DNA of 64,000 nucleotides from Chitinophaga pinensis (GTDB lineage Bacteria; Bacteroidota; Bacteroidia; UBA4408): NCBI GenBank assembly GCA_945861665.1, contig CAMAVS010000001.1, positions 1 through 64,000 on the forward strand, read 5' to 3'. This document shows, piece after piece, positions 2,330 to 11,491 of the stretch. Every line of letters begins with the position of its first letter. The stretch's first letter is position 1. Made by a program: the position numbers and the translations under genes. Under the pieces are notes generated by a model. That model was not told where the DNA came from, searched no databases, and was given only the letters and a program-made list of their open reading frames with translations.

Positions 2330-2480
2330 ATTTTTCTTTGTCTTGACACAAAGGAAACAAAAAGTCAAGAGCAAACGCGATTTTCAGGTATTCGTTTTTC
2401 GCACAAGCCACTGCTATCTATTGCCACGAAACCTGAAATTCGCACCGTTTGCTCGTTGGCTCCCCGCCTTTCTAACAATA
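2330..2480. repeat. Structured intergenic repeat, copy A
   Basis: 5' module TTTCTTTGT-CTTGAC-ACAAAGGAAA...GTCAAG, then long imperfect inverted repeat GAGCAAACG(2369-2377)/CGTTTGCTC(2446-2454) and TTTCAGGT(2382-2389)/ACCTGAAA(2431-2438). Confidence 0.8.
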
Positions 2481-2544
2481 CTCTCCAATTCATTATTAAT
2501 TTTGAGATTGAATATGTGAGGTTGTGAGGCTTTGCCTCACGCTC

Positions 2545-2700
2545 CAATTACTTTTTTTCTTGATAAAAAAAGTAATCAAAAAAATCAAGACCAAACGCCA
2601 TTTACAGTTATTCATTTGTCTCACAAGCCCACGCTTTCGGGGCTATGAAAACTGCAAATCGCACCGTTTGCTCAGTGGCTCCAAACCTTTCTAACAATAT
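2545..2700. repeat. Structured intergenic repeat, copy B
   Basis: Same layout as copy A: TTACTTTTTTT-CTTGAT-AAAAAAAGTAA...ATCAAG, then TTTACAGTT/AACTGCAAA and CAAACG/CGTTTG arms, ending in the shared CCTTTCTAACAATA. Confidence 0.8.
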
Positions 2701-2784: not shown

Positions 2785-3168
2785 CTATTCTGTTACTTGA
2801 GCCATTTTGAATGGCACATTAATTATTGCTTGGTAATCTTCACCAGCTTCCAACATATCCTCGTCATCCGCTTCGTAATACCAGTTGATTACAACTTGGC
2901 TAGCACCACCTTTTTGAATAGATTCTAACTTCTTAAATACATCTAAAATACATTTTGAAGAACTTGTATTGAAATACTCCAACTGAATGTTCACGTTTGT
3001 ATTTGTTTTTGGAGCTGAAGAATACTTGTCCAACCAATCAACCAATGGTTTATAAAATTCAATAGAATTTTCAGGAATTGACCTTCCTTTTATTTCCAAC
3101 AATGCATTGTGGTAATCAAATTTAATGCTTGGTGTTTTTGGTGTTCCTTCAATTTGTAAAGTTTCCAT
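2785..3168 (-). CDS. SiaC-family (DUF1987) regulatory phosphoprotein
   Basis: METLQIEGTPKTPSIKFD...G.S.PENS..FY.PL..WL..Y...P...., characteristic DUF1987/SiaC layout. Confidence 0.85.
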   Translation of the reverse strand: METLQIEGTPKTPSIKFDYHNALLEIKGRSIPENSIEFYKPLVDWLDKYSSAPKTNTNVNIQLEYFNTSSSKCILDVFKKLESIQKGGASQVVINWYYEADDEDMLEAGEDYQAIINVPFKMAQVTE

Positions 3169-3197
3169 TAAGATGAGGTGTATTAAATTAATATGTA

Positions 3198-3749
3198 TTA
3201 TGAAATTTTTATATTTAAACTAAAAAAAGAATATATGTTCTCTACCGCTAAAAAGTTGTAATTTAATTTCTGTCCTGATTTGCGAGCAATATCAATCATT
3301 CCTAATCCTCCTCCGCCTTTTTCTGAAAATTCATCGTTGCTCAATGTCTCTTTGTAATATTCCTTTAATTGCTCTTTATCCATTAAGTTAATTTTATCTA
3401 ACTTATCTTTTAATTTTCCTACGTTTTCTGTAAGAATATAATTTCCTGTTAGAATTGTATACTCTGGTCCTGTTTTACCAATCATAAATATTGCAGATCG
3501 AGGGGCAATATTATCCATAGCAATAGCAGTTTGTGCAACTTCATCCGTGTGATGGTATAAGTTCTGCAAACACTCAACCAGGACGTTATAAACTTTCTTC
3601 TTAATTTTTGGCTCTTCTTGAAGGTTATCCAATTTAGATTCCATGATTTTAAGAATTGATGTAATTAATTCGGAAGTTATATCTCCTTTAAAAGAGAGCA
3701 CAATTTTGTTACGCTCCATTTTATCATAAAAATCATATATGTCTAACAT
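3198..3749 (-). CDS. SiaB-family protein kinase (DUF6272)
   Basis: 183 aa, histidine-kinase-like ATPase fold features (VLVECLQNLYHHTD, GGGGLGMIDIARKSG); immediately upstream of the SiaC gene. Confidence 0.8.
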   Translation of the reverse strand: MLDIYDFYDKMERNKIVLSFKGDITSELITSILKIMESKLDNLQEEPKIKKKVYNVLVECLQNLYHHTDEVAQTAIAMDNIAPRSAIFMIGKTGPEYTILTGNYILTENVGKLKDKLDKINLMDKEQLKEYYKETLSNDEFSEKGGGGLGMIDIARKSGQKLNYNFLAVENIYSFFSLNIKIS

Positions 3750-3882
3750 CCAATTATTTTATTGGCAACAAATATAAATAAAACCTTTGTAAATAAAAAA
3801 AGCTTTATAAAAGTATACTTTAACCATACATAAAACAGGCTCAATCCTTTGTTTATCAACATAGAAGGATAAAACTCAACCA

Positions 3883-4232
3883 CTATGCACTGAAAGTGCA
3901 TAGATTAAAGGAAAAAAAATGAAATTCTTTCTACGATACCTATAAACAGCAACATTATCTTTCTGTACTGTAAAACAAACAAAGATATAATGTACACAGA
4001 GTTTATGGGCTTACAGTACATATAGTTTGGGTTACAAAATATCGTTACAAAGTATTAGAAGGTGATATAAAAATAAAGTGCAGAACATTGATAAAGCAAA
4101 TATGTGATTCGGAAGATATTTCCAATATTGTCGGGAGTTGCGAGCACCATATAAAACCTGGGAGTATGGATACTGATACAATTATACTAGAATAAAAATT
4201 TGCAGAAACTGAAAGTGCATAGTTTCAACTAA
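3883..4232 (+). mobile_element. Decayed IS200/IS605-family element
   Basis: TnpA-like peptide fragment flanked by hairpins: CTATGCAC-tgaaa-GTGCATAG (3883-3903) and GAAACT-N10-AGTTTC (4205-4226); 15-bp direct repeat ACTGAAAGTGCATAG at 3889-3903 and 4208-4222. Confidence 0.6.
3974..4195 (+). pseudogene. tnpA (IS200/IS605 Y1 transposase) remnant
   Basis: Frame reads ...HRVYGLTVHIVWVTKYRYKVLEGDIKIKCRTLIKQICDSEDISNIVGSCEHHI..., resembling the TnpA N-terminus (H-[LI]-V-W-x-T-K-Y-R-x-x-V-L); no HxH-containing 'SPDHVHL' block and no C-terminal half. Confidence 0.6.
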
Positions 4233-11344: not shown

Positions 11345-11440
11345 ATTTTCATGTATTCGTTTTTAGCAGAAGCCATCAACTTCCACGAAACCTAAAACTT
11401 GCATCAATTGCTCATTTGTTTACCCTCTTTCTAATAATAG
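11345..11440. repeat. Degenerate third copy of the 2330-2700 structured repeat
   Basis: Shares TTTTCAtGTATTCGTTTTT...CCACGAAACCT.AAA.TTGCA...TTGCTC...CTTTCTAAtAATA with copy A. Confidence 0.65.
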
Positions 11441-11491
11441 GCACAAATCATTTGGAGTACCACGTAAGCAAAAATGAATTAATAAAATTGA

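Follow-up and report, generated by a model that had tools for sequence, protein, structure and literature searches.

The window, that is, the whole stretch of 64,000 nucleotides of Chitinophaga pinensis DNA that was analyzed, contains two related structured repeats, copy A (2313-2480) and copy B (2524-2699), which occupy the + strand of the interval between two converging genes, one for an Ig-like surface protein (1542-2225, +) and one for a SiaC-family protein (2785-3168, -). Just upstream of the repeats, a pair of neighboring lipoprotein-like genes spans 820-2225, and both encode a Bact_surface_Ig-like domain (PF16403); downstream, at 2785-3749 on the - strand, the gene of the SiaC-family regulatory phosphoprotein (PF09345) adjoins a DUF6272 gene. 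A decayed IS200-like element occupies 3874-4222; of its Y1 transposase, a fragment remains at 4001-4123 (PF01797, E=1e-8), with a small hairpin to each side of it, CTATGCACTGAAAGTGCATAG near 3882 and ACTGAAAGTGCATAGT near 4208. The features of the two repeats, and of a third copy located elsewhere in the window, are as follows.

2313-2329, + strand: copy A, 5' outer hairpin of the F2 type, GCTCTGTGCCGCTGGGC; the same segment is found at the F2 ends of loci L002, L006, L008, and L011
2333-2369, + strand: copy A, pseudoknot-like module, comprising stem S1 TTTCTTTGT/ACAAAGGAA (one T.G wobble), loop CTTGAC, A-rich linker, and GTCAAG
2370-2454, + strand: copy A, long imperfect hairpin with arms GAGCAAACG/CGTTTGCTC
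2465-2480, + strand: copy A, conserved tail CGCCTTTCTAACAATA
2524-2540, + strand: copy B, 5' outer hairpin of the F1 type, GTGAGGCTTTGCCTCAC; also found in the F1 copies L002-L005
2547-2589, + strand: copy B, pseudoknot-like module, comprising stem S1 ATTACTTTTTTT/AAAAAAAGTAAT, loop CTTGAT, linker, and ATCAAG
2590-2673, + strand: copy B, long imperfect hairpin with arms CAAACG/CGTTTG
2686-2699, + strand: copy B, conserved tail CCTTTCTAACAATA
11345-11469, + strand: third, decayed copy (L009), body only, ~74% identical, with the 5' module lost

The original prediction had placed two diverged copies of one repeat at about these coordinates, and this was borne out: A and B are 77% identical overall and share direct repeats at 2359-2418/2579-2638 (80% identical) and at 2423-2480/2642-2699 (83% identical). 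The predicted extent was about right as well, except that each unit starts further 5' than proposed, at the small outer hairpin. The 5' module also has the proposed architecture, in that the six-base loop of each copy is complementary to a segment 16 to 20 nt downstream. In copy A, S1 starts at 2333, the loop CTTGAC at 2342, and its partner GTCAAG at 2364; in copy B, S1 starts at 2547 and the loop CTTGAT finds its partner ATCAAG at 2584. The long imperfect hairpin described after this module is present in both copies (2370-2454 and 2590-2673). When compared with dinucleotide shuffles, the + strands of A and B fold better than expected (z of -6.2 and -3.9, with 0 of 200 shuffles as good), and R1, a covariance model of the 5' module, matches copy A at 2335-2373 (E=3.8e-10) and copy B at 2552-2593 (E=1.0e-10). 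A search for intrinsic terminators returned one weak consensus match, in the outer hairpin of copy A, which is near chance.

The genome to which the window belongs (G000, 2.49 Mb in 13 contigs) holds about ten copies of subfamily F1 (11 F1 matches) and yields 22 matches to a composite F1/F2 query. In the composite loci L002, L006, and L008, one F1 unit is joined to one F2 unit in a tail-to-tail arrangement, so that complete composites carry the knotted module in inverted orientation at both outer ends. Copy A is a hybrid of the two subfamilies, with its first ~55 nt derived from F2 and the rest from B-type F1, and its outer hairpin is reminiscent of the outer end seen in elements from Mucilaginibacter, ATCGCTCATAGCCGCTAAGGCC. 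Both matched variants of the loop-to-flank helix, here called S2, coexist in this genome. For the window copies, neither a clear TIR nor a target duplication was established, and a search of the genome for an IS1595 transposase found none. Because no partner transposase was found in their own genome, copies A and B look like relics.

Distribution of the module and constraint on its pairing

Among 148 Bacteroidota genomes searched with R1 (cut-off of E <= 0.05), 66 contained matches, with up to 44 copies per genome. A degenerate exact pattern was then compared with one genome per species (84,980 species), and 80 of 80 loci among the matches listed belonged to Bacteroidota; represented among them were Flavobacterium, Chryseobacterium, Mucilaginibacter, Chitinophaga, Saprospiraceae, Bacteroides luti, and a Prevotellaceae MAG. 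The part that stays constant across lineages consists of S1, the loop CTTGAN, the A-rich linker, and NTCAAG (closing S2), followed by the long imperfect hairpin, while the bodies of the elements diverge strongly between lineages. Nine of 149 modules lie inside ORFs and the rest outside, without a recurrent neighbor gene, and copies in antisense orientation to genes are no rarer than copies in sense orientation. Many copies form same-strand tandem arrays in intergenic DNA, and several lineages have inverted modules at both ends of a 330- to 480-bp element. The core sequence was not found quoted in the papers searched, and with neither Rfam nor the literature searched containing it, this repeat superfamily is apparently undescribed.

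Several further observations concern the arrangement of the copies. Two to four copies of ~300-390 bp are arrayed within one intergenic region each at loci L142, L144, L145, and L147. Same-strand clusters at a spacing of 300-450 nt had suggested integron attC arrays; L142 and L144, however, are tandem noncoding copies between ordinary genes, without cassette ORFs, and this candidate was rejected. In Chryseobacterium-like genomes, some copies are located upstream of apparently the same gene across species (L144/L212 and L209/L213). An asymmetric internal loop, TA opposite CTTAAC, recurs in the long hairpin of several lineages (L142, L144, L154, L233, and L299-L312), sometimes twice per element. 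A search for a plasmid or phage origin gave no match, and no clear bias relative to the direction of replication was seen (about 21 with versus 13, in a hand tally that assumes complete records to start at the origin).

The matched changes between the two window copies had been read in the original prediction as a sign of selection on structure, and both the changes and the constraint on pairing are supported in a wider sample. Across 49 distinct 5' modules, 94.7% of the cells are paired compared with 83.2% after shuffling, two-sided changes number 73 compared with 19.5 +/- 3.4, and the covariation score reaches 0.326 compared with at most 0.085 for slid partners, in a set gathered with a model that favors the consensus and with covariation statistics that ignore kinship. 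Both S1 and S2 covary far above the controls; the most variable pair of S2 is T-A in 21, A-T in 10, and C-G in 10 of the 49 modules.

One way to account for this pattern is a structured RNA, the first of the three options that the original prediction had offered. In that case, the repeats would be copies of a regulatory or catalytic RNA family, with an H-type pseudoknot stacked on the long hairpin, that has spread as a repeat. The H-type topology with its A-rich linker, the basal arm that directly follows S2 in every family read, the strong covariation, and the recurrence of the asymmetric internal loop in several lineages all speak for such an RNA. However, comparison with Rfam 15 gave no match, neither at the gathering score for the whole window nor at a relaxed threshold for its copies and related ones. 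Moreover, within the knot, G-T cells are not more common than A-C cells (7 and 7 in S1; 2 and 9 in S2), folding measured against shuffles is no stronger on one strand than on the other (z of -3.48 forward and -3.42 reverse over 69 copies), and the antisense placement noted above counts against an RNA as well. In the long hairpin, the stems chosen by RNAalifold, which favors G-U, do show an excess of G-U over A-C in some families, so that the argument from wobble pairs is suggestive rather than final. Taken together, the RNA option fared poorly, and we judge it to be improbable. A role as a DNA cruciform target, which had also been put forward, or as a single-strand target is possible.

Alternatively, the matched arm changes might be a product of mutation alone, if template switching at imperfect palindromes copied one arm onto the other without any selection. 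Near-perfect Watson-Crick pairing with few wobbles is what template switching would give, and the elements are indeed rich in palindromes and decaying. Yet S2 is a non-nested pair. In addition, between Bacteroidales and Chitinophagales the bodies diverge completely but the CTTGAN loop and the A-rich linker are retained, which calls for either constraint or a recent common spread. We give this explanation a similarly small chance of being correct.

Mobility and candidate transposases

The clearest indication of mobility comes from genome G081, which was taken as Edaphocola flava HME-24. Fourteen dispersed copies in this genome align as a ~480-bp element with the ends ACTGAGTATCCGC ... GCGGATAGTCAGT and the module within. 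The elements have 13-bp TIRs, and the end motif has 75 matches compared with 2 for a reversed control pattern. A target duplication score of at least 7 was obtained for 70% of the 23 two-ended elements and for 1.3% of mismatched flank pairs; these duplications, mostly of 8 bp, were shown in this genome only. At a further locus, L324, the same ends enclose 4.7 kb with a 363-amino-acid ORF for a DDE transposase of the IS1595 family (PF12762, E=3e-41; NF033547, E=6e-56). Its left end (60 bp) and right end (422 bp) are ~85-91% identical to the short element, module included, and L324 is likely the parent transposon of the Edaphocola MITEs; its flanks show no clear target duplication. The forms of 101-128 bp that also occur in Edaphocola arose by internal deletion, which left a single fused hairpin between the ends. 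Since such short forms also bear target duplications without having the full knot, the knot is dispensable for transposition in this lineage.

Elements with inverted ends are found in other lineages as well. Mucilaginibacter sp. X5P1 has 46 module ends, which face each other in pairs about 8 times to form elements of ~390-450 bp whose ends are long and inverted; no clear target duplication was found at these elements, and no autonomous partner was seen among the wider-spaced end pairs. A family in a Chitinophaga MAG consists of 239- to 240-bp units with inverted ends (TIRs of 12 bp or more), often in tandem, again with no clear target duplication. IS1595 transposases are absent from most of the module-rich genomes tested, and IS1595 loci other than L324 have no module within about 1.5 kb. 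On these grounds IS1595 was rejected as the universal partner, and the module may be a passenger captured by IS1595. Mobilization by IS1595 is therefore proposed for one lineage only.

The original prediction had also considered a REP/MITE-like mobile repeat. In its MITE form, this is the best of the three options, given the TIRs, the duplications, and the likely IS1595 parent in Edaphocola, whereas the REP-transposase form did not hold. A published survey describes atypical secondary structures in the flanks of the REP-associated tyrosine transposases (RAYTs) of subclass 2.6 in Bacteroidetes (PMC6006769), and modules and such RAYTs co-occur in the 148 genomes (28/34 versus 38/114; Fisher p=4e-7, kinship ignored). 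A REP-like repeat moved by such RAYTs (subclass 2.6/group 5) is nonetheless highly improbable and largely refuted, for a search of 24 RAYT loci with the model gave a convincing module at one, ~900 bp away, the RAYTs read carry short palindromes of their own in their flanks, modules are numerous but RAYTs absent in genomes G276 and G283, and the search of the window's own genome for a RAYT found none and just the IS200 fragment. As a separate observation, the palindromes at the subclass 2.6 genes L092-L094, L102, L104, and L287-L290 are short and gene specific, e.g., GGTGTAGTTTGCAACTACACC, and differ between genomes.

Interpretation and comparison with known systems

In our view, A and B probably belong, in decayed form, to a MITE-like, nonautonomous family of mobile repeats that extends across Bacteroidota and has a conserved knotted hairpin acting at the DNA level. 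In Edaphocola, the IS1595 transposase would act in trans on the short elements and move them by a DDE mechanism. In other lineages, and in the genome of the window, other or now-lost enzymes may have spread the repeats. The knot would be kept as folded DNA, as a hairpin or cruciform and perhaps while the DNA is single stranded during replication or transposition, rather than as RNA. It is tempting to go one step further and to speculate that the pseudoknot is a phylum-wide DNA-level signal for transposition or recombination, recognized by a putative Bacteroidota enzyme and repeatedly captured by unrelated transposons such as the Edaphocola IS1595; we regard this more specific proposal as rather unlikely, if less so than an RNA or template switching.

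The analysis points to a superfamily of repeats, present in many genomes of Bacteroidota, that together with its pairing seems to be undescribed; it provides a sequence model with which to find them and ties one lineage, that of Edaphocola, to a specific transposase, IS1595. The kind of element is already known, and its phylum-wide reach is what is surprising. This raises the question of why pairing between loop and flank, to which we would ascribe a function, stays at the DNA level throughout the phylum while the remainder of the element turns over.

The pistol ribozyme likewise has a hairpin loop that pairs downstream across an A-rich linker, followed by a stem. The likeness is one of topology and does not imply function: the module has no match to pistol or another Rfam family and lacks the strand signature of an RNA. 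Within Bacteroidota, the BrickBuilt MITE of Porphyromonas gingivalis is also intergenic and has small inverted-repeat ends, and is reported to differ in being built of a 23-nt tandem minisatellite (PMC4596501). REP/BIME sequences with their RAYTs (TnpA-REP subclass 2.6; PMC6006769) are similarly intergenic, palindromic, and multicopy, with tandem and inverted pairs, and occur in Bacteroidota. In contrast, the module elements are longer, show no GTAG foot in the sequences read, and have a module unlike the palindromes flanking the RAYTs examined. MITEs derived from insertion sequences of the IS1595 family (ISXO2-like) come closest for Edaphocola flava, whose elements are short and noncoding and have TIRs, 8-bp duplications, and ends in common with an IS1595 transposon, whereas other lineages with the module have different ends, no duplication that was found, and mostly no IS1595 transposase. 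More broadly, the family is short, noncoding, multicopy, and dispersed, as MITEs are, and has TIRs in Edaphocola (13 bp) and the Chitinophaga MAG (12 bp or more) and long inverted ends in Mucilaginibacter, to which it adds a loop-pairing knot module by which, to our knowledge, MITEs in general are not defined.
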